From contig JAILQN010000214.1 of assembly GCA_024699005.1 (NCBI GenBank), forward strand, positions 1 through 16,503: 16,503 bases of DNA, in the 5' to 3' direction. The position numbers and the translations under genes are program-made. How positions within the stretch are numbered: position 1 is the stretch's first letter; each line of letters opens with the position of its first letter. The notes below the pieces were generated by a model. That model worked only from the letters and a program-made list of their open reading frames with translations, searched no databases and was not told the origin of the DNA. Below, piece after piece: positions 3,632 through 14,687 of the stretch. This DNA comes from Clostridia bacterium (lineage in GTDB: Bacteria; Bacillota_A; Clostridia; Oscillospirales; Acutalibacteraceae).

Positions 3632-4960
3632 TTATCTGACGGTCAGCTCTGCATGATTCAGCAGTATTTCTTTTGCCGTTCCGGTTTTGTTTTCAAACTC
3701 AAACATGCTCATTCCGTACCAGCCTTCGTAGTCGGGCGCCCGGTAGCGGATCCCTGCAAGGGAGTGCGTTTTGCCCCAGGAGACAACGTCCGCGTACAGC
3801 TTCGCCTGTCCTTCCTGATCCATACCGTATCCGCGCATTTTCCTGTTCCAACCGGCGAACGCGCCTTCCATCTCGCCTGAGGGATATGAAAACTCGCCTA
3901 TGAACACGGGAAGCCCGCACTTTTTATATATGGCGTCAACGGTCTTTTTCAGCAGTATCTTTTTGCTGAGATATAAAGACGGCGCGCTGGGATAAAAGCT
4001 GATGCCGGCGACGTCCATTGCGTATCCGTTTTCTTTCATGCAGTTGAAGAACGCGGCGCAGCTTTTCGGCATGGCGACGACCGTCGCGATATGAGTGGAA
4101 AAAGTGACGCCGTATGAGTCGATGCCCAGTTTACCGTAAGCGGACAGGATGCCTTCTCTCACAGCCGCGTATGCTTTTGCGTCATATTGCCAGAGGTTCT
4201 TTTCCAGCCAGCGTACGCCGAAAGCCGGCAGGATATAGCGCATAAAGGACGGCAGTTTTTCCAGTTTCGGGTTTACTGCTGTTTTAAACCCGAGGCTGAT
4301 CCCCGCAAAGCCGAAATTGGCTTCGTTGCCCAGGTTCCAGTCATTTACTGTGCAGCCTGTTTCAAGGATGGCTTTACCTATGAATTCGCCGTAAGCGCGC
4401 AGCACGGCGCAGATCTCATCCAGAGAGAGCTCCGACCAGTCTTTGCCGTTCTGCAGCGCGAAGATCTCCGGATATTCGTCAAAACGGGGCGCCTGTTGGG
4501 TCTCCATGTCCATATACGTATAGGCGCACATGATTTCGGGATTGATGGGTATATCCAGTTCCGCCGCGATCCTGCAGAGTTCTATGCCCTGATCGAAAGT
4601 GTGCACGTTCGCGTTTGGATCGGGCTTGCCGTCCGTGACGTCTTCGTCTGTGACGCTGCGTTTCGTTGCGATACGGCAGTACATTTCCGTCGATCCGAGC
4701 TCCCTGTAGACGGACTGAAGCTCCTCCGGTGTGGAAGCCGTTTTGTCGCCGATCCTGAACGTGTAACCCTGTTCGAACTGCGGCAGCGAGAACGGACTCA
4801 GCTAGAGCGCCGTGCGGAAGTTTTCCGAGATGTCCCTCTCCGGAGCCGGATCGCCCCCGAAATATACGAACTGGCTCCATAACACGGATCAGAGGACAAT
4901 TACCAGTATCGCCGCGACGGAAGAAAGAATTATCTTTTTGCGGTTTTTTGTTTTTTTCAT
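3632..4960 (-). pseudogene. GH53-like endo-beta-1,4-galactanase with two in-frame stops
   Basis: One continuous frame of 442 codons runs from the ATG at 4960 (SD-like CAGG about 10 bases upstream) to the stop at 3632, but it contains TGA at codon 24 (4889-4891) and TAG at codon 53 (4802-4804). The start encodes a lysine-rich then hydrophobic segment (MKKTKNRKKIILSSVAAIL), a signal peptide or membrane anchor that the first stop interrupts. The rest resembles a clan-A TIM barrel of the GH53 type: WNLGNEANFG with the candidate acid/base Glu213, GISFYPS at about 320, and FIGEFSYPSG with the candidate nucleophile Glu356. The whole catalytic part is intact. A restart at the internal ATG (4684) would give 350 residues without the export segment and has only a poor ribosome site. 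GH53 is my best family; another clan-A family is possible. Confidence 0.75.
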
Positions 4961-4974
4961 GATGATATACCTGC

Positions 4975-5003
4975 TTGACAAAACTGTAACTATGCGTTAC
5001 AAT
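4975..5003 (+). promoter_or_regulatory. Sigma-A promoter of the TetR-family gene
   Basis: TTGACA (4975-4980), a 17-base spacer, then TACAAT (4998-5003). The expected start is near 5010, giving a leader of about 90 bases before the ATG at 5100. The spacer holds the palindrome at 4985-5001. Confidence 0.8.
4985..5001. promoter_or_regulatory. Candidate TetR-family operator, 17-bp palindrome
   Basis: TGTAACTATGCGTTACA: perfect 6-bp arms with a 5-bp spacer. It lies between the -35 and -10 of the rightward regulator promoter and at the expected start point of the leftward GH53-like promoter, so one bound dimer could control both. The neighbouring regulator is of the family that usually binds such short palindromes and represses itself. 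Binding is inferred. Confidence 0.65.
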
Positions 5004-5006
5004 CTT

Positions 5007-5035
5007 ATTATACAGACAAAGTGTCGGGTATGCAA
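5007..5035 (-). promoter_or_regulatory. Divergent sigma-A promoter of the GH53/symporter/GH78 run
   Basis: On the minus strand TTGCAT (5035-5030), 17-base spacer, TATAAT (5012-5007). Transcription should begin near 5000, inside or beside the palindrome at 4985-5001, and proceed into the GH53-like frame starting at 4960. One half of a second inverted repeat (5022-5029) lies in its spacer. Confidence 0.7.
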
Positions 5036-5071
5036 TCATCAGTTTTGATAATTTTGGCGGCAAACCCGACA
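5022..5071. repeat. Inverted repeat TGTCGGGT ... ACCCGACA in the regulatory region
   Basis: Perfect 8-bp arms at 5022-5029 and 5064-5071, with 34 bases between them. The left arm is in the spacer of the leftward promoter; both arms lie in the leader of the regulator transcript and could form a stem there. A third, partial copy (GTGTCGCG) occurs at 5085-5092 just before the regulator start. It could be a second operator pair or a leader hairpin; the sequence does not decide. Confidence 0.5.
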
Positions 5072-5099
5072 AAAAGGTATGAAAGTGTCGCGATAATGT

Positions 5100-5666
5100 A
5101 TGAACGTTAAAGACAATCAGAGGACAAGGCTCTCGAAAAAGCTGTTCCGGTCCGCGCTTCTGGAACTGCTGGAGGAAAAGAGCGGTATAGAAAAGATATC
5201 CGTACGCGAGCTGTGCGACAGGGCGGAGCTGAACCGGTCCACCTTTTACGCGCATTACGCCGAGCCGAGGGAAGTGCTTGACGAAGCGGAGGAGGAGATA
5301 CTTGCCGAGACCGCGGAGCATATCCGGAAGATCGGAGAACAGATGAAGGGCGGAGGAAAGGATTTTCTCGCGTCCTTCCTGCGCTATATCCGGGAAAACG
5401 ACAGATCTTTCCGCGTGCTGCTTGTCACGGCTGCGGATCCCGCGTTCAAAAGCCGCTTTACTCAGCTGGCGCTGCTGCAGTTATTTGAACATCTGCAGGT
5501 CACCATGGACGCGGAAAAACAGCAGTATATTTATTCATACCTGCTGAACGGCAGCCTCGGCGTGATCACACAGTGGATCCGTTCGGATTACGCCGTGTCG
5601 GTTTCCGTGATAGTGGAGCTGCTGTTCACTATGAACAGCTCGGCGATGAGCCCGGTTGTTGTCTGA
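5100..5666 (+). CDS. TetR/AcrR-family transcriptional regulator
   Basis: Protein of 188 residues, the normal size for this family. The N-terminal helix-turn-helix is clear: KKLFRSALLELLEEK, then ISVRELCDRAELNRSTFYAHY (shown here as SVRELCDRAEL plus NRSTFYAHY, about residues 34-55), followed by an alpha-helical ligand or dimerisation domain with the pattern of the TetR_C group (YLLNGSLGVITQWI near 145-160). It most likely represses itself and the divergent glycosidase/transport run through the palindrome at 4985-5001. The ribosome site is poor; AAAGG lies more than 20 bases upstream, and an ATG at 5096 opens only a 4-codon frame. Pectin-type loci are more often run by LacI, AraC or two-component regulators, so a TetR protein here is less usual. 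Confidence 0.9.
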   Translation: MNVKDNQRTRLSKKLFRSALLELLEEKSGIEKISVRELCDRAELNRSTFYAHYAEPREVLDEAEEEILAETAEHIRKIGEQMKGGGKDFLASFLRYIRENDRSFRVLLVTAADPAFKSRFTQLALLQLFEHLQVTMDAEKQQYIYSYLLNGSLGVITQWIRSDYAVSVSVIVELLFTMNSSAMSPVVV

Positions 5667-5677
5667 TTTAAGATTTT

Positions 5678-6088
5678 CAGGAGCTGTTGCATTTGGTGGG
5701 CTGTAAAAGAGTCCATACCTGTAGCACGGCAGACCCCTGCCGTTTTGAACAGAAACGCGGATATGCGGCGGATATGACGCCGTATATCCCGTTTTTGTTC
5801 AACCGGATATATTCGACATTCTTAAATTGAACACTTCGGGACGGGGTTGTGTTTACGTGCTTAATAAGACAACGAATAAAAACAGAATGGTCGAATAATT
5901 GTTACAGTGTAACATCGTCCACCCCGTCCGCATCAGCGTTCAAAACGGCAGGGGTCTGCCGTGCTACAGGAAGATCGCTTCCGTTCATCCCGAATATGAG
6001 ATCCTTTACTCAAAACAAAATACGGATTCTTGACGCAAAAAATCAAGAATCCGTAATCATTTTGGGTTTTATAATGCAACAACCCCTG
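5678..6088. mobile_element. MITE-like non-coding element with nested inverted repeats (411 bp)
   Basis: This covers almost the whole gap between the TetR gene and the acyltransferase, and I see no credible gene in it. The outer ends are an imperfect inverted repeat (CAGGAGCTGTTGCATT at 5678-5693; the reverse complement of 6073-6088 is CAGGGGTTGTTGCATT). Inside is a perfect 33-bp inverted repeat (5718-5750 and 5938-5970), each arm itself a hairpin around CGGCAGACCCCTGCCG. Further in is a 9-bp pair (GGACGGGGT at 5839-5847, complement at 5921-5929). The CTGTTGCA end resembles ends of several insertion-sequence families, so a deletion derivative mobilised in trans is likely. No target duplication was evident. 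Confidence 0.65.
6021..6055. terminator. Strong hairpin, likely bidirectional terminator
   Basis: A perfect 13-bp stem (6021-6033 with 6043-6055) around a 9-base A-rich loop. On the minus strand it is followed by TTTTGTTTT, a fair U-tract for transcripts leaving the acyltransferase gene; on the plus strand the downstream sequence (AATCATTTTGGG) is weaker. It sits within the right part of the palindromic element. Confidence 0.6.
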
Positions 6089-6102
6089 TACTTTTATATT
6101 TT

Positions 6103-7329
6103 TTATGAACTCGCTGTCTTTCGTCGCCGGAGGCGCAGATAAGCGTCTTTGACGAAGTTCTCTCCGTTTTTGATCAGAAGCGTCACGCCGTCGCCGTATA
6201 TCTTCCCGAAAAGACACGAAATTGAGATCGCCGTGATGAAAAACAGGATGTAACGTGTAAACGTATCGGCTGTTCCGAACATCTCCAGAAGATGCTTTTT
6301 GACTTCTATATGGAACAGATAAGCCCAGAAGCTGACAGATGCGAAGGCGTCGGTTATCCTGAGGGGATGGCGAAGGATCGTTCTGAACGTCGCTTGTTTC
6401 CGTTTTTGATGGCTGTTTGCGGCATCAAAAGCAAAAAGATAAAACAGTACGACAATAATATAGCAGGTGGGGAAAAAGTATTGATAAGTCCTGACGCTGA
6501 ATCTGCCCGGAGTCGTCATAAGGTAGAACCAGCTGTTAAAAAGAATGAATCCGATGAAGAGAGCAGCAGCGGCAACTTTGAGAACGGTTTTCCGGGTCTT
6601 GTTATCCGGTTTCTTCATTTCCGGCAGGATATATGCAAAAAGAAAACCGGAGAAATAAAGGTCGATATTGCCGAAAGGCGGCGTATAGACAAGGTAATAC
6701 CAGTTGAGCCGGGACTTCAGAGCTATGATCCTGTATGCGAAACCGGCGATCGCTATGAAAGCAAGGATCACCGCCGGAGCTTTGCGCAGGAGAAAGTTCC
6801 TCTGTGACGCCCCGCGAAGTTTCTTCATGAGCAATGCCGTAAGAGGGGTAAACATATACAGCCACATCAGAATGAAAATATACCATGTGTGCCCCATTCC
6901 GCTGTATCCGCCGCCTCCGTTGAAAGTAAACGTGAAAAGCCTGAGGATGAGTTTCCGGTTGCCTTTGAGACTCTGCGGGTGACTGATGAGCATCTCCGCA
7001 AGAACGAATATGACGGTCGGCAGCCACGTCTTCAGAAGCCTTTGTCTGTAATACCTGACTGTGCCGGATGCGTCCGGAGCGTATCTGCCGCATTCGAAAC
7101 TTTTGCCTGCCAGATAGCCGGAAAGAATAAAGAAAATCCATACTCCCGCCCATGCGCACGACCGGAAAAGGACCCCGAAAGGAAGCCGGGATATAAGAGC
7201 GTTGTTTTCAATCTGCTGCATATGCTGATTGAAAACCATTAAAGTCGCGACTGTTCTCAGAAAGTTGATCGCGTCGGGCGTCGCGTCCGCGCGGAGAAGC
7301 TTTCCCGAGTTTGCGGAATCGTTGATCAT
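6103..7329 (-). CDS. Membrane acyltransferase, family 3 (OafA/YrhL type)
   Basis: Integral membrane protein of 408 residues that probably transfers an acyl group, often acetyl, to a cell-surface glycan. Visible hallmarks are INFLRTVATLMVFNQHM near the N-terminus (the conserved His of acyltransferase 3), FFILSGYLAGKS, an RLLKTWLP arginine segment, and about 10 hydrophobic helices. It ends in a basic tail (RLRRRK). I chose the ATG at 7329 rather than a TTG at 7395: the TTG is part of a -35 element and the intervening region carries the -10, so translation should start downstream. GGAG lies 11 bases before the ATG. No neighbour shows its substrate; it is a single-gene unit ending at the palindromic element. 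Confidence 0.85.
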   Translation of the reverse strand: MINDSANSGKLLRADATPDAINFLRTVATLMVFNQHMQQIENNALISRLPFGVLFRSCAWAGVWIFFILSGYLAGKSFECGRYAPDASGTVRYYRQRLLKTWLPTVIFVLAEMLISHPQSLKGNRKLILRLFTFTFNGGGGYSGMGHTWYIFILMWLYMFTPLTALLMKKLRGASQRNFLLRKAPAVILAFIAIAGFAYRIIALKSRLNWYYLVYTPPFGNIDLYFSGFLFAYILPEMKKPDNKTRKTVLKVAAAALFIGFILFNSWFYLMTTPGRFSVRTYQYFFPTCYIIVVLFYLFAFDAANSHQKRKQATFRTILRHPLRITDAFASVSFWAYLFHIEVKKHLLEMFGTADTFTRYILFFITAISISCLFGKIYGDGVTLLIKNGENFVKDAYLRLRRRKTASS

Positions 7330-7366
7330 CTGTGCTCTTACTCCGGTGAGGATTGTTGTTTTTATA

Positions 7367-7395
7367 ACTATATCAGAAGTTTTCGGCTTTTTCAA
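7367..7395 (-). promoter_or_regulatory. Promoter of the acyltransferase gene
   Basis: On the minus strand TTGAAA (7395-7390), 17-base spacer, TATAGT (7372-7367), with TG one base before the -10 (extended -10). Transcription should begin near 7360, about 30 bases before the ATG at 7329. Confidence 0.7.
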
Positions 7396-7443
7396 CTGCT
7401 GTTCGGTTATCTGTTGTTTTTGAAAAAATTTTTGATATTTTAC

Positions 7444-7472
7444 TTGACAAAGCCGTATGATTATGCTATCAT
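7444..7472 (+). promoter_or_regulatory. Promoter of tRNA-Leu
   Basis: TTGACA (7444-7449), 17-base spacer, TATCAT (7467-7472) with an extended -10 TG at 7464-7465. The expected start near 7479 is a few bases before the mature tRNA 5' end. Confidence 0.8.
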
Positions 7473-7484
7473 CCCTTTTGCCGA

Positions 7485-7567
7485 GCGAGAGTGGCGGAAT
7501 TGGCAGACGCGCACGTTTGAGGGGCGTGTGGGTGACCGTACGGGTTCAAGTCCCGTCTCTCGCACCA
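7485..7567 (+). tRNA. tRNA-Leu (anticodon GAG)
   Basis: Acceptor stem GCGAGAG (7485-7491) pairs with CTCTCGC (7557-7563), and the ACCA end is encoded (7564-7567). The anticodon loop is TTGAGGG, with anticodon GAG reading CUC/CUU, between the stem arms CACGT and GCGTG. The extra arm (GGGTGACC region) is long, as expected for a class II leucine tRNA, and the T arm contains GGTTCAAGTCCC. Its own promoter lies just upstream and the terminator hairpin directly downstream. Confidence 0.96.
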
Positions 7568-7617
7568 GCAAAAAAACGTCTTTTGTCTGCAGACAAAAGA
7601 CGTTTTTTTGCTGGTGC
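7562..7617. terminator. tRNA terminator within a perfect 56-bp palindrome
   Basis: Perfect palindrome with 28-bp arms, no mismatch and no loop, centred between 7589 and 7590. The inner part is a GC-containing stem (GTCTTTTGTC and its complement) followed by seven T (7603-7609), a standard intrinsic terminator. The symmetry continues outward: the A-run before the stem matches the T-run after it, and the last bases of the tRNA including its CCA end are mirrored at 7611-7617. The A-tract on the other strand would make it bidirectional. Confidence 0.9.
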
Positions 7618-7788
7618 ATTCCGCTCTTGCGGAACGTGATGTGTCCTTCGCGCGAGATCAGCGGAACACGCCGCATCACTTTGCCGAAGGCATAACAAAA
7701 CCATTCATTCGGAATACAGCACCGTATACACTTTCTGAACACCGGTTCAAGCGATGCGATCATTCTGGAGAGCGACGGGCATTTCGCC

Positions 7789-8577
7789 ATGGTCGACGCC
7801 GGAGAGGATTCCGACAATCCCCGCGGTTTTGACTGGCTCAACTACGAAGGTCACGAACAGGAGGTGCTCGCGTATCTTAAAGCTCACGCCGCGGATGAGA
7901 ACGGAAAAGTGCATCTGGATTTCGTTCTCGTCACCCACGCTCATTCGGATCATATCGGCGGTTTCGATACCGTGATACTTGACCCTGACGTGACTGTGGA
8001 CCGCGCATATCTGAAGGAATACGACAGCAGTAAGATCCACGCCTACGAGATTGAGGAATGGGATAACCAGGAAGTATACGACCAGATGGTGAACGCGCTC
8101 CGGGAGAGGGACGTGCAGATCATTTTCAACCCGGACGGAACTCCGTTCACCTTCGGAAATTTCACGGTAACTCTTTTCAATACAGAGGATCCGGAAAATC
8201 CGGAGACGGTCGGCGAAAACGACCGGTCTCTCGGAGTGCTGCTCGAAAAGAACGGGACGCGTATATTCCTCGCGGGGGATATGGACGATAATACCGGCGA
8301 CGAGACGCGTCTTGCTCCGGAGATCGGGAAGGTCGATCTTCTGAAGCTCGGGCATCACGGTTACGAAGGATCGAGTACGGAAAGCTTTATCGAAACGCTG
8401 CACCCGGAAGCCTGTGTCGTCCCGAACGGCAGGGATTTCGGTCTGCTGAATAAATTCGCGATGATCATTGAGACCTGCGGCCACAGCAGGATCTATACCA
8501 CAGGCGTCGAAAAAGGCGTTCTCGCAGTGATCGGCGACGAAGGCGCGATCTCTTACTACGGTTATATACAGCTGTAG
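7789..8577 (+). CDS. Metallo-beta-lactamase-fold hydrolase (ComEC-like), 5' end doubtful
   Basis: Metal-dependent hydrolase of the MBL fold, close in style to the soluble ComEC/Rec2-type domain. It has THAHSDHIGG (metal ligands His50, His52, Asp54, His55 counted from the ATG at 7789), LAGDMD with Asp164, and LLKLGHHG with His189/His190. The substrate is unknown. The frame is open upstream to 7696, and those codons encode the expected first strand (IHFLNTGSSDAIILES), but no ATG, GTG or TTG occurs there and no ribosome site is seen. Starting at 7789 would lose that strand. The start has probably been lost or replaced, so this may be a 5'-truncated gene. It lies just beyond the tRNA palindrome; 7618-7695 holds only small hairpins, such as TTCCGC/GCGGAA at 7619-7634. 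Confidence 0.8.
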   Translation: MVDAGEDSDNPRGFDWLNYEGHEQEVLAYLKAHAADENGKVHLDFVLVTHAHSDHIGGFDTVILDPDVTVDRAYLKEYDSSKIHAYEIEEWDNQEVYDQMVNALRERDVQIIFNPDGTPFTFGNFTVTLFNTEDPENPETVGENDRSLGVLLEKNGTRIFLAGDMDDNTGDETRLAPEIGKVDLLKLGHHGYEGSSTESFIETLHPEACVVPNGRDFGLLNKFAMIIETCGHSRIYTTGVEKGVLAVIGDEGAISYYGYIQL

Positions 8578-8591
8578 GAGAGGACCGATAT

Positions 8592-9010
8592 AAGGGGATG
8601 TAAAAAAACTCGCCATATTCATCGGGCTGTCAATCAGGGGACGGTTTTCGTGATTTACCCCAAAGAACGGCGATATCCGGTAGTTTGAATACGATTTGCT
8701 GTAAGAAAACTCTTCTTTTCAGGCTGTCAATCACAGAACCGTCCCTCTGATTGACCCGCCGGTAATTGCAATGAACCGTTTATTTACAATGTAAAACAAT
8801 AAAAATCCACAGACTTTGCCGGTTTGTGGATTTTTTATTGAATCCGGGGTAAATCAGAGGGACGGTTCTGTGATCGATATCCCCTGAAGGTCAGTGTAGA
8901 AAATCGCCTCAATACAGGTCAGCGGACAAGGAATTCGCATCGGGATCAATCGAAAAAAACCGTCCCCTGATTGACATCCCTTGCTGTTGGAGTTTTTTTA
9001 CAGCCCCCTT
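8592..9010. mobile_element. MITE-like palindromic element with GGGGACGGTT repeats (about 419 bp)
   Basis: This fills the gap between two convergent genes; no gene is seen in it. The outermost pair is AAGGGGATGTAAAAAAACTC (8592-8611) against the near-identical complement at 8990-9010. Next is a perfect 21-bp inverted pair (8628-8648 and 8956-8976) holding TCAATCAGGGGACGG. Then comes a perfect 23-bp pair (8730-8752 and 8852-8874) with the variant core CAGAGGGACGG. At the centre is the hairpin at 8797-8840. The left inner copy is also self-complementary (GTCAATCA at 8725-8732 and TGATTGAC at 8746-8753). Repeats of this kind occur in Clostridia genomes; mobilisation by a transposase elsewhere is inferred. 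Confidence 0.65.
8797..8840. terminator. Bidirectional intrinsic terminator at the element centre
   Basis: A stem of 15 bp (8797-8811 against 8825-8840, one bulged T) around a 13-base loop, flanked by A5 on the left and T6 on the right. It can serve both the hydrolase gene ending at 8577 and the minus-strand gene ending at 9012. Confidence 0.65.
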
Positions 9011-9011
9011 T

Positions 9012-9419
9012 TTAAAATTTTTTCTCTATCGTGACGATATTTTTGCCGTCTCTGTATTCGTAACGCATACTGTCCATCGTCTTTTTTACGATAAAGATCC
9101 CGAGGCCGCCGATCTGGCGTTCGTCGGCGGAGAGGGTGGTATCCGGCGGAGGCTTGAGCAGCGGATCGTAGGGGAAACCGCTGTCCGTCAGAGTCAGTAC
9201 GGCGCGGCGGGGATCATCCAGGATCTCGACCGATACCGTTATATCCCCGGTCCCGGGCATATAGGCGTAGCGCGCCACGTTGCTCATAAGCTCGTCCAGC
9301 GCAACGGCAAGCTGAAGCTGCGCGCGGACGGGACAGCAGGCGCGCTCCAGCACTTCGTTCATAAAATCGGTCGCCGTTTCGATGTTTTCTATTAAAGCGG
9401 GTAACGTTATTTTCGGCAT
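9012..9419 (-). CDS. RsbW-like anti-sigma/switch ATPase (HATPase_c_2)
   Basis: Small cytoplasmic GHKL ATPase of 135 residues, the usual size for RsbW/SpoIIAB-type serine kinases or switch partners. The N-box is ALDELMSNVARYAY with Asn47, the G1 box is DSGFPYDP (Asp79, Gly81), and the G2 box is IGGLGIFIVKKTMD (about 103-116). All ATP-site residues I can check are present, unlike the copy fused to the MATE transporter upstream. The stop of the phosphatase gene lies one base before the ATG at 9419; a GTG at 9428 would overlap it by 8 bases. AGGA upstream is 12 bases from the ATG and too close to the GTG, so the start is not settled. It probably forms a signalling pair with the phosphatase; the sigma factor or STAS target is not in the window. 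Confidence 0.9.
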   Translation of the reverse strand: MPKITLPALIENIETATDFMNEVLERACCPVRAQLQLAVALDELMSNVARYAYMPGTGDITVSVEILDDPRRAVLTLTDSGFPYDPLLKPPPDTTLSADERQIGGLGIFIVKKTMDSMRYEYRDGKNIVTIEKKF

Positions 9420-9420
9420 A

Positions 9421-11109
9421 TCAGTCACCGTTCCTGTTATATGAGAAGCAGAGCATGGTTATATCGTCAAACTGCGGGGCGTCGCCCACGAAGGCGTCTA
9501 TGTCCGCCTTGACCGCAGGCAGTATCTCCTCCGGAGTTTTGTCCACAACAGTGTTAAGGGCGGTCTCGAGCCGCTCCATTCCGTAAAGCCGTTCGTCCGC
9601 GTCGGTCGCCTCGGTCACTCCGTCGGTGTAAAGGAATATCTTGTCGCCGGGCGAGAGATCGAAGGAGCCGCCTTTGAAGCGCATATCCTCCATACCCGCG
9701 AGCACGAAGCCGGGCTTGATCTTATAAAGCTCGAATGGTCCGCCGGCGCGGCTGATGAAGGGAGGCTCGTGGCCCGCGTTGACGAAGCGGAACTCGCCGG
9801 TCACAAGATCCAGGACTCCCTCGAAAGCCGTGATGAAGAGGCTCTCGCTGTTGGACTCGCACAGTAAGTTGTTGACGTCCGCGAACACGGTGGAGAGATC
9901 GGTGCCGGGCACGGTATGGTCTTTGATCAGGGTCTTGCCGATGACCATGAACAGCGCCGCCGGAACGCCCTTGCCGGAAACGTCCGCAACGACGACTGCA
10001 AGATGCCGGTCGTCCACCATAAAGAAATCGTAGAAATCGCCGCCGACTTCTTTCGCGGGATCCATGGTCGCGTATATATCAAACTCCGGTCTATCGGGGA
10101 AGGGCGGGAAGATGCTGGGCAGCATGGAGGACTGGATATGGGTCGCAACGTCCAGCTCTGCGCCGATCCTCTCTTTTTCCGCCGTGATAGCGGTGATGTT
10201 GGTGATATACTGGTTGATATCCTTTTCCATCTGCTTGATGGCTTCGCTCAGGGTCTCCACCTCGTCGCCGGTCCTGATATCGAGCCTCGATATAGCGGAA
10301 CCTTCCGCGTGGGTTTTGTCCCTGTCCTCCACGAAGGAGCTTGCGGCTGAAGACAGCTTGTTGATGGGGTATATAAGCGCTTTGTTTATAAGCAGGATTA
10401 TAATAAGCGCAAGAGCGATGGTCGACAATCCGATGATTATGACCATATTTAGCAGGAATCTGCCGCGATCCGCCACGATCTTATCCATGGAGATATCTAC
10501 GCCTACCAGCGCGACCGGGTTGCCGTTGCCGTCCTTCACCGGTTCCATAGCCGTACACAGCCAGCCGAAGTCGCCGTTGGATATATAGGACGGAATGCCG
10601 TTTTCGCGGTCTTCGACAGCCAGAGAATAGTCGTCGATAGGGCGGACGATGCCCAGCTGACAGTATTCGTCGCTGGTGTCAGTATCCATGATATAGGTGC
10701 ATTGAACACCGTCCAGCTTCTGTACGTACAGATATTTGATATCGTTGGCGTTTTTTATGTCACGCAGGATATCCATCATCCGTTCGTACTCCGCGTCCTT
10801 GAGCGCATCGGCTCTGGCGTCGAAATCCGCGCGGTATTTCCCGTCGTTTTTGTATCTGTCTGCGTCGAATTCTCCGAGCTGCTTCGCCTCGTTATAATAC
10901 CTCATAAGTTCGTCCGCGTCCAGCTGCGACGCCGCCGTTTTAGCAAGATCGGAGGTGAGCTTTCTGTAATGGTCGTCCATCGTGGAGGCATAAGTGTGAT
11001 AACTGATGGATACGAGGATCGCGGACAGGATAGCCGAAGCCGCCACTATGATCAGGACGGATTTTGTTCGCAGTGATGCGACGCGTTGTTTCTTTTTCGT
11101 TTCGGACAT
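9421..11109 (-). CDS. Membrane SpoIIE-type PP2C phosphatase with sensor and HAMP
   Basis: Protein of 562 residues: cytoplasmic basic start, TM1 about 17-38, an extracytoplasmic Cache-like sensor about 39-217 (with YLYVQKLDG and VALVGVDISMDKI), TM2 about 219-242, HAMP and coiled coil about 243-313, then an RsbU/SpoIIE PP2C domain about 314-557. Metal-binding acidic motifs are present: GGDFYD (about 357-361), ADVSGKG (Asp376), YTDGVTE (Asp496), FDDIT (548-549). It should dephosphorylate a phospho-STAS protein in response to an outside signal. I chose the ATG at 11109, which has AAAGGA 9 bases upstream overlapping the stop of the GNAT gene; the frame is open further upstream, but that part overlaps the GNAT gene and reads as arginine-rich antisense-like sequence. 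Tight spacing to both neighbours indicates one operon. Confidence 0.93.
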   Translation of the reverse strand: MSETKKKQRVASLRTKSVLIIVAASAILSAILVSISYHTYASTMDDHYRKLTSDLAKTAASQLDADELMRYYNEAKQLGEFDADRYKNDGKYRADFDARADALKDAEYERMMDILRDIKNANDIKYLYVQKLDGVQCTYIMDTDTSDEYCQLGIVRPIDDYSLAVEDRENGIPSYISNGDFGWLCTAMEPVKDGNGNPVALVGVDISMDKIVADRGRFLLNMVIIIGLSTIALALIIILLINKALIYPINKLSSAASSFVEDRDKTHAEGSAISRLDIRTGDEVETLSEAIKQMEKDINQYITNITAITAEKERIGAELDVATHIQSSMLPSIFPPFPDRPEFDIYATMDPAKEVGGDFYDFFMVDDRHLAVVVADVSGKGVPAALFMVIGKTLIKDHTVPGTDLSTVFADVNNLLCESNSESLFITAFEGVLDLVTGEFRFVNAGHEPPFISRAGGPFELYKIKPGFVLAGMEDMRFKGGSFDLSPGDKIFLYTDGVTEATDADERLYGMERLETALNTVVDKTPEEILPAVKADIDAFVGDAPQFDDITMLCFSYNRNGD

Positions 11110-11123
11110 TGGAAAAAATCCTT

Positions 11124-11990
11124 TCATATCATTATCAGATTGACATACGTATTGACAAGCTGCGCATTGAATACAACGGAAGAGACTGTCTCCTCGCCGT
11201 CGCCGCAGGCGAAATCCGGCAGGAACGCCCGTATGGTGCGGAAGCCTGTCAGTTCGCGCAGGGCGGGGGAGATCCTGCCGAGCTGTGCGGGGGTCAGGTC
11301 GGTCTCTGTGATCAGATAATGTTTTCCCCTCGGGGATCCCATCAGGAAATGAGTTTTTCCGTCGAGCGCCACGGCGAGGGTTTTGCCCCCGCAGAAGGCG
11401 TTTTCCTTTATGCAGCAGCAGACGTGGGCGTCGGACCATCCGGCGTACGGATGAGATGAAAACGCCGCGCATCGAAGGCGGTTGTAATCTTCAGGCGAGA
11501 TATCTGTAAATACCGCATCTCCGGTCCGGGTTTTAGCGCCGTTATCTGTCGTAACCGTTCGGAAGCAGGCATCCTTTCTGAAACCGAATTTGCTGTAATA
11601 CTCCTCAAGATACGGTGTCGCGGGTTTCAGAAAAAGGGCGTAGCCGCCCTGCAGAGCCTGTTCCGAAACGTATTTTATCAGCGCTCTCATATAACCTTTA
11701 TTGCGGTGGTCCGGGATCGTGCCTGCAGCGTAGATGAGTTTTGCTTTCCGCCGTTCTTCGCCGTTTTTGAACTCTGAATCGAACAGATGCAGCATGCTGA
11801 CCGGTTCGCCGTCCGCGACATATACCGGAACAGCAATTTCACTGAAGTTGAGGCTGTAGAAAAAACGGATGTACTCTTCCGGATCGTCAAAACACTCCCG
11901 CCAGATGTGCGAAAGAGCGGGGATATCCTGTTCAGTCGCGAGACGGATGTTTTGCGCGGGCGTGATCTGCGCGTTTGTGTCGTTTGTCAT
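11124..11990 (-). CDS. GNAT-family N-acetyltransferase with C-terminal extension
   Basis: Protein of 288 residues. The GNAT fold spans about residues 14-150: NIRLATEQDIPAL opens it, and motif A is AAGTIPDHRNKGYMRALI (residues 88-105), with the acetyl-CoA loop at Arg96-Asn-Lys-Gly99. A late YLEEYYSKFGFRKD (about 127-140) matches motif B. The remaining 140 residues form an extension that recalls Eis-like multi-domain GNATs but is not recognised with confidence. The acceptor is unknown. It is followed 14 bases later by the phosphatase gene and probably shares its transcript. No Shine-Dalgarno site precedes the ATG; instead a -10 element sits 6 bases upstream. Confidence 0.85.
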   Translation of the reverse strand: MTNDTNAQITPAQNIRLATEQDIPALSHIWRECFDDPEEYIRFFYSLNFSEIAVPVYVADGEPVSMLHLFDSEFKNGEERRKAKLIYAAGTIPDHRNKGYMRALIKYVSEQALQGGYALFLKPATPYLEEYYSKFGFRKDACFRTVTTDNGAKTRTGDAVFTDISPEDYNRLRCAAFSSHPYAGWSDAHVCCCIKENAFCGGKTLAVALDGKTHFLMGSPRGKHYLITETDLTPAQLGRISPALRELTGFRTIRAFLPDFACGDGEETVSSVVFNAQLVNTYVNLIMI

Positions 11991-11996
11991 AGAGTG

Positions 11997-12004
11997 ATTA
12001 TATC
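11997..12004 (-). promoter_or_regulatory. Extended -10 promoter, possibly giving a leaderless mRNA
   Basis: On the minus strand TATAAT (12002-11997), preceded by TG and one base. The next six bases are CACTCT and then the ATG at 11990, so the start point would fall at or beside the initiation codon. The -35 region lies in the 7-bp repeat array and is not consensus. Confidence 0.5.
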
Positions 12005-12012
12005 ATTTACGA

Positions 12013-12040
12013 ATTACTCGTAACTCGTATCTTGTAATTC
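12013..12040. repeat. 7-bp tandem repeat array between MATE fusion and GNAT genes
   Basis: Four 7-bp units: ATTACTC, GTAACTC, GTATCTT, GTAATTC. The flanks form a perfect 7-bp inverted pair (GAATTAC at 12011-12017 and GTAATTC at 12034-12040), so the RNA of either strand could fold. It begins 5 bases past the MATE fusion stop codon and could terminate or pause that transcript; this is inference. Confidence 0.65.
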
Positions 12041-12045
12041 AACCG

Positions 12046-13797
12046 TCATACTTCCACCGTAAGTGTATTGAACCCGGCGTATCTTCGGTAGAAAAAGCTC
12101 CTGGATTTCGTCTTTACCATCTGGATGCCGAGGGACGCCAGCTGTTCCTCGTCGTCGTAATTATGTCCGGTTTTCATGTCGAAGGGATTGAAATGCACGG
12201 CGTTGTCGCGGATATGTATGGTGACAGTGTCGTTCGGTTCTTTGCACAGAGTAAGCTGGATATACTCATTGCCCTGCTCGGTGAACGCGTTGTCGATTAT
12301 CGCGCGGCAGACCTCCTCCACGCACATGGTCACGAAATAGGATTGCTTGACTCCGATTTCGTTTTCCTCCAGAAAATCCCCTGCCCCGATCAGCATATCG
12401 GCGGTATCGGAGGAGTCGGACGTCAGGAGATAAGTAAAAACTTTGTCGGACGTCTTCGGATTCTTTTTTACGTAAACCGGTATCCAGATGCACAGAGATC
12501 CCAGCTCGGAGAACAAAAACGTGAGCCAGAACCATCTGATCCCGAAAGCGGAAAAGGCCAGCGCCAATATGATGTACAGCGCGAACGACCGCAGCTGATT
12601 TATAAGGAAAACGATCTTTTCCCTGCCTATCGCCTGGAAGCACGAGCTCCACATGATGCTTACGCCGGCTGGAACTACGGAAAGGCAGAAAAGACGCACC
12701 GCGAACACGCCCTCCGTCATGGTTGCGCCGGTCAGTCCGAAAACTGAACAGATCTGCGGCGCAAAAACGGCGCCCAGAGCTGCCGTAAGCGCTCCGCCGG
12801 TGAGGCCGATGATGACCGTAAGCGTCATTACACGCTTAAGAGCTGCGCGGTTGTGTTCCGCAAAGAACGTTCCGCTGAGCGGCTGCGACGTGTCGCCGAG
12901 GGCGTTGAACAGCGCGAATGCTACGTAGGATACGTTCTGAACGACGTTAAGCTGGGCGAGCGCCGATTCGCCGCCGATCTTGCGCAGAACGTTGTTGACG
13001 ATGAGCAGCGCGGCGAACTGCCCGATATATTTTGCCGAGGACGACATTCCGGTTTTAAGAACGGAGAGGATCAGTCTGAGGTCCGGTCTGACAAATCTGA
13101 AACGCAGTATCGCCCATTTTCTTGTAAAATGGAAGCAGAATATGCACACGCCTACTGCCTTGCCCAGGACCGTGGCATAGATCGCGCCCTTCACGTCCCA
13201 TTTGAAAACGAGGATGAACAGTGCGCTGGCGCCCACGTCGGTAAGATAGCCGGTAAGATAGCCGATGCTGGCGAGCTTTTCGGCGTCGTCGCAGCGGATG
13301 CAATAATACAGGAGAAAATACAGAAATGTCAGTGGTGTGCCCATGTACATGACCGTAAGATAATCCTTCGTATACTGATACAGTGCGCCGCGGGGATTGC
13401 CCGCTCCCAGAATTTTAAGAATATGCGGCATAAAAGCCAAGCCGAGCGCCCCGATAACAATGCTTGCTGCAACGGCGACCATGAGCATCTGCGAGAATAT
13501 CCTGATCCCGTCTTTCGCCTTTCCTTTGCCCAACGCCTTGGTATAGTGTACCGACGCGCCGACGGCAATGCCGACATCAAGCACGTTGTAGATCATATAC
13601 ACCGGGGCGACAATCGACATCACGGCAAGTCCCTGCGCGCCGATGCGTATGCCGACGAACAGCGCGTCCGCGATATCGCCGAGGGCAAGCCCCAGCGCCG
13701 AAAACAGCGTCGGGATAAAAAGCCGGCGGAACATCCTGTCGGTGAATCCGTTCTGAGTTCTGAGTTTTGAGTTCTGAGAGTCCAAAGTGTTTTTCAT
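12046..13797 (-). CDS. MATE-family transporter fused to a degenerate RsbW-like ATPase domain
   Basis: Protein of 583 residues. Residues about 20-445 form a MATE exporter with about 12 membrane helices (FRRLFIPTLFSALGLALGDIADALFVG style opening, here residues 23-49). Residues about 460-583 are a HATPase_c_2 domain: MCVEEVCRAIIDNAF (N-box region 491-505), HIRDNAVHFNPFD (528-540) and LASLGIQMVKTKSRSFFY (553-570). By alignment with the free RsbW-like protein in this cluster, the N-box Asn is Ala499 and the G1 Gly is Ala533, so ATP binding may be weak or lost. The start ATG at 13797 overlaps the upstream stop as ATGA, showing coupling to the DUF2156 gene. Residues 7-16 are encoded by a 7-bp repeat array. 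An ATPase module fused to a transporter suggests regulated transport. What it moves is unknown. Confidence 0.9.
   Translation of the reverse strand: MKNTLDSQNSKLRTQNGFTDRMFRRLFIPTLFSALGLALGDIADALFVGIRIGAQGLAVMSIVAPVYMIYNVLDVGIAVGASVHYTKALGKGKAKDGIRIFSQMLMVAVAASIVIGALGLAFMPHILKILGAGNPRGALYQYTKDYLTVMYMGTPLTFLYFLLYYCIRCDDAEKLASIGYLTGYLTDVGASALFILVFKWDVKGAIYATVLGKAVGVCIFCFHFTRKWAILRFRFVRPDLRLILSVLKTGMSSSAKYIGQFAALLIVNNVLRKIGGESALAQLNVVQNVSYVAFALFNALGDTSQPLSGTFFAEHNRAALKRVMTLTVIIGLTGGALTAALGAVFAPQICSVFGLTGATMTEGVFAVRLFCLSVVPAGVSIMWSSCFQAIGREKIVFLINQLRSFALYIILALAFSAFGIRWFWLTFLFSELGSLCIWIPVYVKKNPKTSDKVFTYLLTSDSSDTADMLIGAGDFLEENEIGVKQSYFVTMCVEEVCRAIIDNAFTEQGNEYIQLTLCKEPNDTVTIHIRDNAVHFNPFDMKTGHNYDDEEQLASLGIQMVKTKSRSFFYRRYAGFNTLTVEV
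13750..13777. repeat. 7-bp tandem repeat inside the start of the MATE fusion gene
   Basis: Four units of GTTCTGA on the plus strand (third unit GTTTTGA), followed by a decayed unit. On the coding strand it gives residues SQNSKLRTQN, a polar tail just before the first membrane helix. It lies wholly within the coding frame. Confidence 0.75.
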
Positions 13798-14687
13798 GAT
13801 CTGACCGCCGCGGCTTTCCACATCCTCATCATTTCCTTCGGAGAGCGCAGAAGTTTATGCGCCCTGAGCCCGGGCAGCCCCATATCCTCCTCGGAGTCTA
13901 TGACGGTCACCTTTTCGGGCAGCTCCTGATAAAGCAGCCATTTTATATAGCAGTCGCAGCGCTTGTCCAGAAGCTTGCAGAAATTCAGATCGTAAATTTC
14001 CGGCGTGACGAACGAGCCCGCGATATATGCGATATCCTCTCCGTCCGCACGGTAAAGAATTCCGAACATCGAAAGCTCGTCAAAATGCGTCAGCGCGTTT
14101 TCCGCCGGTCCGGCGTCCGCCATATCGGTATCTTCGCGCAAGTCCGCCCATATGCGGTTTATTTCCCGGGCTCTCGCAATATTGTCGGAGCGAAGCGGTT
14201 CAAAATCCCAGCTGCCGTAGGCTGCGCGTCCGCGGTTGACGTTGTGCCGCAGATCCCTGAAGGCTTTCCCGGACATGGCGATCTGTTCCGCCTTGTCGTA
14301 GATATAGGAAAAATCGTCTCTGCACTCCTCAAAAAAGAAAACGCCGGGAAAGGCGCTCTCCAGAAAGGCTTTGTCGCCGTCGCTCACGAACCAGAACGTC
14401 GGTGAGCCTGTTTCAAGAAGATCGTTGATAAACAGCCTCCTGCCGCAGTCCGTACCGACGGGGAACAGATACGAGTTATCCCCGCGGGCGCCGTTTTTGA
14501 TCAGGTAGGCGTCATCCCGCAGGCAGATCTCATACCGTTCGATTTCCTGCCATGAGAAAAGGGTCGCGAATGTGTATGTGTATACGGTGTTTCCGGACGC
14601 GGCGCGGATCGCCTCGACCTGTTCTTTATGCCGGAGTTCAACCGGAGTAAAAATCAAAGTTGAAGAACTGTTTGTGTCGGTTATCAA
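13794..14687 (-). CDS. DUF2156-type (LPG synthase C-like) acyltransferase
   Basis: Protein of up to 297 residues resembling the DUF2156 family, a double-GNAT fold shared with the aminoacyl-phosphatidylglycerol synthase C-terminal domain. Visible features are VYTYTFATLFSWQEIERYEI (35-54), YLFPVG (73-78), an ECRDDFSYIYDKAEQIAMSG block (121-140), GKAFRDLRHNVNR (140-152) and GSFVTPEIYDLNF in the C-terminal half. It has no membrane helices, unlike full MprF. Its substrate is unknown; lipid or peptidoglycan modification are options. The start is unsettled: TTG at 14687 is the longest option, and a TTG at 14654 is closer to where the domain begins. The 3' end overlaps the MATE fusion start (ATGA), so the two are translationally coupled. 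Confidence 0.8.
   Translation of the reverse strand: MITDTNSSSTLIFTPVELRHKEQVEAIRAASGNTVYTYTFATLFSWQEIERYEICLRDDAYLIKNGARGDNSYLFPVGTDCGRRLFINDLLETGSPTFWFVSDGDKAFLESAFPGVFFFEECRDDFSYIYDKAEQIAMSGKAFRDLRHNVNRGRAAYGSWDFEPLRSDNIARAREINRIWADLREDTDMADAGPAENALTHFDELSMFGILYRADGEDIAYIAGSFVTPEIYDLNFCKLLDKRCDCYIKWLLYQELPEKVTVIDSEEDMGLPGLRAHKLLRSPKEMMRMWKAAAVRS

Follow-up and report, generated by a model that had tools for sequence, protein, structure and literature searches.

A degenerate RsbW-like domain on a MATE exporter of rumen and gut Clostridia and a possible partner-switching module around it

Partner switching is known chiefly from the control of sigma factors, as in the RsbU/RsbV/RsbW and SpoIIE/SpoIIAA/SpoIIAB systems of Bacillus subtilis, besides a few direct enzyme outputs. 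The usual ligand of the RsbW/SpoIIAB-type fold is a STAS protein; GHKL anti-sigma kinases form dimers, and pseudokinases are frequent regulators of an active paralogue. STAS-type switches with direct protein output (SiaC-SiaD, HsbA-HsbD and BgrV-BgrR) are described in PMC8457831. Here, we analyze a 16,503-nucleotide stretch of Clostridia DNA (the window, meaning this whole stretch), in which an exporter gene ends in a degenerate RsbW-like domain. On balance, we favor the reading that its operon is a partner-switching module in which a membrane exporter takes the place of the sigma factor as the output, the degenerate domain docking STAS or RsbW.

Five genes follow each other on the minus strand of the window (Table 1): DUF2156/LPG_synthase_C, MATE-HATPase_c_2, GNAT, PP2C/SpoIIE, and RsbW. 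The preliminary description had claimed ATGA coupling of the first two, and the DNA indeed shows the DUF2156 stop TGA (13796-13794) overlapping the MATE start ATG (13797-13795); this coupled ATG 13797 is likelier to be the start than GTG 13821 of the listed open reading frame. The RsbW start overlaps the PP2C stop by 8 bases, and the PP2C start was set at ATG 11109, with ATG 11127 as a possible alternative. Kinase and phosphatase share one operon (9012-11109), as a partner-switching module requires, and the N-terminal part of the PP2C protein looks membrane-bound. The sole solved-structure matches were 2hqy for the DUF2156 protein (E 1.4e-21) and RsbW 6m36 for the window RsbW (E 7.4e-5). DUF2156 has a GH43 gene upstream on its strand; a promoter-like site between them has 9/12 matches, such matches being no evidence of function. 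At the start of the MATE gene (13745-13790), CTCAGAACTC-like direct repeats encode the stretch LDSQNSKLRTQN. A tRNA gene was found by Rfam at 7485-7564, and the open reading frames over it are likely spurious.

Table 1. Features of the exporter operon in the window.
Feature	Position	Strand	Evidence
DUF2156 / LPG_synthase_C acyltransferase-type gene, first of the operon	13794..14687	-	PF09924 E 1.1e-17
MATE exporter with C-terminal degenerate GHKL domain, 583 aa	12046..13797	-	Pfam, DNA
C-terminal HATPase_c_2 / RsbW-like domain, about residues 447-583 of the MATE fusion	12049..12459	-	PF13581
Codon of residue 499 of the MATE fusion, Ala at the N-box Asn position	12301..12303	-	
Codon of residue 533 of the MATE fusion, Ala at the G1 Gly position	12199..12201	-	
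GNAT acetyltransferase	11124..11990	-	PF13527 E 7.7e-16
PP2C / SpoIIE-type phosphatase	9421..11109	-	PF07228 E 1.1e-45
Free RsbW-like kinase, predicted	9012..9428	-	PF13581 E 3.4e-22

The second product had been described as a MATE transporter joined to an RsbW-like GHKL module, and its single frame does hold both MatE (PF01554, E 5.3e-25, 88.4 bits vs. a curated cut-off of 24.9) and PF13581 (E 1.9e-6, 28.3 bits, just over the cut-off of 27.4). The best solved match of the MATE core is the DinF-type BH2163 (residues 19-439); the alignment with ten solved MATE chains ends at about residue 439, and the GHKL domain comes after. Residue D44 is invariant in the 35 rows of alignment A1, is conserved in at least 90% of the 94 rows of alignment A2, and aligns to an Asp of BH2163; we take it to be the conserved Asp of the first MATE membrane helix. 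The core of the fusion is a predicted MATE transporter.

A profile of 19 fused C-terminal domains (A3) had RsbW 6m36 as its top PDB match (E 4.9e-5), followed by the SpoIIAB chains 1tid, 1th8, 1til, and 1l0o (E about 4e-4), these being the five best in all; the window domain by itself matched no GHKL chain in a comparison with PDB chains. By these similarities, the fused domain is a putative GHKL homologue of the RsbW/SpoIIAB type. Its N-box reads VEEVCRAIIDNA vs. LDELMSNVARYA in the window RsbW, and its G1 motif RDNAVHF vs. TDSGFPY, Asn and Gly being replaced by Ala at residues 499 and 533, respectively; the G2 stretch is LASLGI, compared to IGGLGI in RsbW. The alignment thus agrees with the earlier statement that both positions are Ala in the fused module and that the free RsbW downstream retains both residues. 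As the N-box Asn and the G1 Gly are gone, kinase activity is not expected of the fused domain, which is probably inactive.

Named genome records, the great majority metagenome-assembled, were scanned and yielded 28 loci; with L097, L099, and the window there are 31 distinct ones, L100 (the same as L001) and L098 (which holds L026) having been dropped. The hosts of the fusion operon are rumen and gut Clostridia, and the distribution of the family is patchy (two family-level samples had it in 4/300 and 2/63 genomes, respectively, at E 1e-60). As far as the contigs reach, the order DUF2156-MATE/GHKL-GNAT-PP2C-RsbW is kept over the 31 loci, with four exceptions. The DUF2156 gene is present in all of them, PP2C in 28 (L023, L024, and L027 are cut by contig ends), and GNAT in 27 (the same three are cut, and L099 has no GNAT). 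RsbW was found in 18 of the 31, in 16 of these in one frame with PP2C; it is absent beside PP2C in L002, L015, and L097 despite the contig running on, while the ten other loci are cut by a contig end or not assignable. In L002, the GNAT gene (4793-5466) is split over two frames in its assembly. The preliminary description had set conservation of this gene order as a check and named missing linkage of the MATE fusion to phosphatase or acyltransferase genes as what would refute it; the order and the linkage both held, with DUF2156 in 31/31 loci and PP2C in 28/28 where the contig is long enough. A chance fusion or an assembly join was rejected, since 25 of the 28 named-record loci show the fusion and the other three (L023, L024, and L027) end before reaching it; 170 fused proteins from several sources also speak against it.

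In 12 of the 31 loci a STAS gene immediately precedes DUF2156 on its strand (L001, L003, L008, L012, L018, L019, L021, L022, L025, L026, L028, and L099). L004 has a STAS fragment there, and L014 was left uncounted; in L017 a STAS gene is found downstream on the opposite strand, and in L024 about 4 kb upstream. The 17 loci with room upstream of DUF2156 and no STAS in that place include the window, which has no STAS gene anywhere. The motif SSAGLR or SSSGLR is present in 16/16 aligned STAS rows (repeats, L017, and L024 included). Judging by sequence, the upstream STAS is the predicted supplier of the usual third partner of the switch in the 12 loci; for the window, the STAS protein would come from elsewhere in the genome. 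All eight related genomes tested for it had further STAS matches, two to six each, and all nine tested for HATPase_c_2 had such matches, four to ten each.

An unlikely alternative to contact with STAS is that the fused domain pairs with RsbW and tethers or regulates this kinase at the membrane as an allosteric partner or scaffold, STAS never touching the exporter. This would suit the presence of an RsbW gene within the operon at 18 of 31 loci (ten more being cut or not assignable), the dimers of GHKL anti-sigma kinases, and the pseudokinases that regulate active paralogues; however, this fold usually binds STAS, and L002, L015, and L097 do without an adjacent RsbW.

The losses were followed through 170 distinct family proteins, the window's included, obtained by merging the best 120 of 311 matches with all 57 of a second search. 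At the N-box position there are 164 Ala, 4 Val, 1 Thr, and 1 Phe (Asn in 0/170), and at G1 169 Ala and a single Gly (in P0171). By comparison, RsbW domains, free or in frame with PP2C or others, have both Asn and Gly in 27/27 cases (L098 repeating L026). The degenerate state is fixed in the window's family. At the same time, none of the 170 proteins deviates at R530, D531, or the pair E494 E495, and the stretch YRRYxGFNTL is among many near-invariant residues. Mean pairwise identity over the 16 loci with all parts full-length was 0.73 for the MATE core, 0.70 for the fused domain, 0.62 for PP2C, 0.59 for DUF2156, 0.53 for RsbW, and 0.47 for GNAT. Decay of the fused domain was rejected on its conservation over 170 proteins and an identity of 0.70 vs. 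0.53 in RsbW. It is also quite improbable that the domain persists as a passive relic whose sole effect is to stabilize the exporter: it is conserved above RsbW and has its many near-invariant residues, although such a relic would resemble the related MATEs L062, L063, L073, and L075 (544-578 aa), the short tails of which look by eye like shrunken GHKL remnants and which have no partner-switching neighbors by our own profiles.

Class-level samples provided 22 MATE-GHKL fusion loci beyond the window's family. The N-box Asn is retained in 19 of them, and the G1 position is Cys in 14, Gly in 6, and Ser in 2; both Asn and Gly are kept in five (L065, L066, L067, L068, and L071). Therefore, the losses mark the window's clade and not all fusions, and the proposition that all MATE-GHKL fusions are inactive was dropped. 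Homologues with a full ATP site, which had been named beforehand as refuting a non-kinase role, are accordingly absent among the 170 family proteins and present in 5/22 fusions outside. Four of the five (L065, L067, L068, and L071) are close kin with MATE proteins 90-97% identical, each directly downstream of a very long gene, and no partner-switching gene was found within 6 kb of these four fusions. A MATE-domain tree of 60 rows separates (100/99) 16 unfused MATEs from all of the fusions together with three MATEs bearing other tails, which leaves many independent fusions unsupported. The window's family forms a clade of 22 rows (100/99), with Asn lost in 22/22 and G1 Ala in 21/22. The tree implies at least three changes of state, long branches making some inner placements unsure.

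Several further arrangements were observed around these proteins. One genome (G001) has a window-type operon (L020) and a second MATE-GHKL fusion (L103, on contig G001:C3) with Asn kept and Cys at G1, which adjoins a STAS and a STAS-RsbW protein. Proteins of 520-535 aa with STAS and RsbW by profile at their two ends occur near fusions (L069:10452-12038, L070:12705-14309, L103:9812-11404, and L107:7142-8701); those of L069 and L070 have an APH domain in the middle (Pfam), and L059:6821-8026 encodes a STAS-APH protein. In G112:C60:80874-83423 and G478:C109:7945-10302, HATPase_c_2 is located at the end of frames of 582 and 588 aa, respectively, near PP2C-HATPase frames, the G112 region also having a STAS; these are perhaps further exporter fusions. 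L074:9411-11408 is a MATE with a C-terminal tail resembling, by eye, a cytidylate-kinase-like domain.

As a linkage control, 20 of the unfused matches, selected because their match was confined to the MATE part, were compared with the 22 outside fusions. Pfam models place a match to STAS, SpoIIE, or another HATPase_c_2 within 6 kb of 13/22 fusions vs. 1/20 unfused MATEs (Fisher p 2e-4; 7e-5 with close kin collapsed, fusions 12/18), less than 6 kb being available on one side of controls L113, L127, and L131 and fusions L107 and L110. The sole positive control, G104:C19, has SpoIIE at about 3.3 kb and HATPase_c_2 at about 4.8 kb; nine of the 22 fusions have no STAS, PP2C, or other HATPase_c_2 within 6 kb by Pfam. 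With profiles of our own, constructed from fusion loci, the result was 13/22 fusions and 0/20 controls, G104 being missed, and these profiles detected no partner-switching neighbors for five MATEs with other tails (0/5). Fusion and linkage thus go together, which favors physical partnership. The same result counts against a further reading, which we regard as decidedly unlikely: that an altered pocket of the fused domain serves to detect a metabolite or nucleotide, while the adjacent switch regulates transcription via a sigma factor and has no contact with the exporter. The invariance of R530, D531, and E494 E495 would agree with such a pocket, and the further STAS and HATPase_c_2 matches in the related genomes with such a switch; nevertheless, the linkage tracks the fusion.

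The preliminary description had proposed that the transporter moves a product of the acyltransferase, and amide-forming enzymes next to some other fusions lend this idea a degree of help. Fusions adjoin a GH3-type synthetase in L064, an NRPS with a terminal reductase (Pfam) upstream in L065 and in the analyzed portion of L071, and a GNAT in L060, where a second gene also resembles GNAT but scores below the cut-off; L061 has a layout like that of L060, judged by gene size. Among the checked neighbors in the G1-Cys clade no amide-forming enzyme was found. Given that such enzymes adjoin some fusions and none was seen in that clade, it is a fair guess from gene content that the exporter cargo is a locally made amide or ester in some lineages, with no general rule. 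Literature on gut dipeptide aldehydes, among the matches listed, has no link to a MATE-GHKL fusion. The L064 locus (4502-13859) comprises STAS, GH3-type synthetase, MATE-GHKL, PP2C, and RsbW genes, which adjoin a Tail_P2_I gene as well as two similar uncharacterized genes.

Taken together, the fixed ATP-site losses and the conserved operon with PP2C, RsbW, and often STAS make a docking role the best reading of the fused domain, as its retained RsbW/SpoIIAB ancestry would offer a docking face; the STAS neighbor, the fixed losses, and the unfused-MATE control all strengthen it. The preliminary description of the domain as a docking or sensing module and not a kinase therefore gains support for the window's family, from the two lost residues, their fixation, and the operon context; extended to all MATE-GHKL fusions it is too wide, as five of the 22 outside keep Asn and Gly. 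In the proposed mechanism, the membrane PP2C would sense a signal and dephosphorylate the STAS protein, and the intact-looking RsbW would put the phosphate back. The GHKL domain on the MATE protein would serve as a docking face for STAS or pair with RsbW, and docking or release would gate or stabilize the exporter. The likely cargo of the exporter is a small compound, acylated or aminoacylated, that the DUF2156 and GNAT enzymes would make. We infer STAS docking, gating, and the nature of the cargo from these genomic patterns. A more specific scenario, offered tentatively, is that phospho-controlled STAS docks on the inactive kinase domain and opens or closes the exporter, an ancestral fusion with a complete ATP site having lost this site after a separate RsbW took over. 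If true, an outside signal read by the phosphatase would set the export of a self-made compound at once, without transcription.

Compared with RsbU/RsbV/RsbW and SpoIIE/SpoIIAA/SpoIIAB, the operon likewise has a PP2C and an RsbW-type kinase gene together, and many relatives of the window add a STAS with the Ser motif; unlike in these systems, an exporter bears a degenerate RsbW-like domain, and there is no sigma factor among the five genes. We know of no degenerate kinase domain on an effector of the SiaABCD, HsbA-HsbD, or BgrV-BgrR type, and the PP2C of the window shows a weak resemblance to SiaA (61.3 bits vs. a cut-off of 700). As PMC8457831 describes them, these systems resemble the proposed one in that a phosphorylation-controlled STAS-type protein acts directly on an effector, which is a diguanylate cyclase there and would be a transporter here. 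SLC26/SulP anion transporters are also fused to half of a STAS/anti-sigma pair, but, according to PMC8256260, it is the STAS half; the window's fusion of the kinase-like half to another transporter family is the mirror case. Compared with DinF-type MATE exporters such as BH2163, the core aligns, while the window protein continues into the GHKL domain where the matched solved chains stop. Titles and abstract beginnings among the literature matches listed, with few subscription papers, contained no report of a MATE-GHKL fusion. These fusions would offer a graded natural set of exporter-borne GHKL domains whose ATP sites range from complete to degenerate, and the operon could open a way to an unstudied compound secreted by rumen and gut Clostridia. 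An anti-sigma-like half on an exporter within a conserved gene set would extend partner switching to transport: an export pump may here be governed by a switch best known for the control of gene expression.
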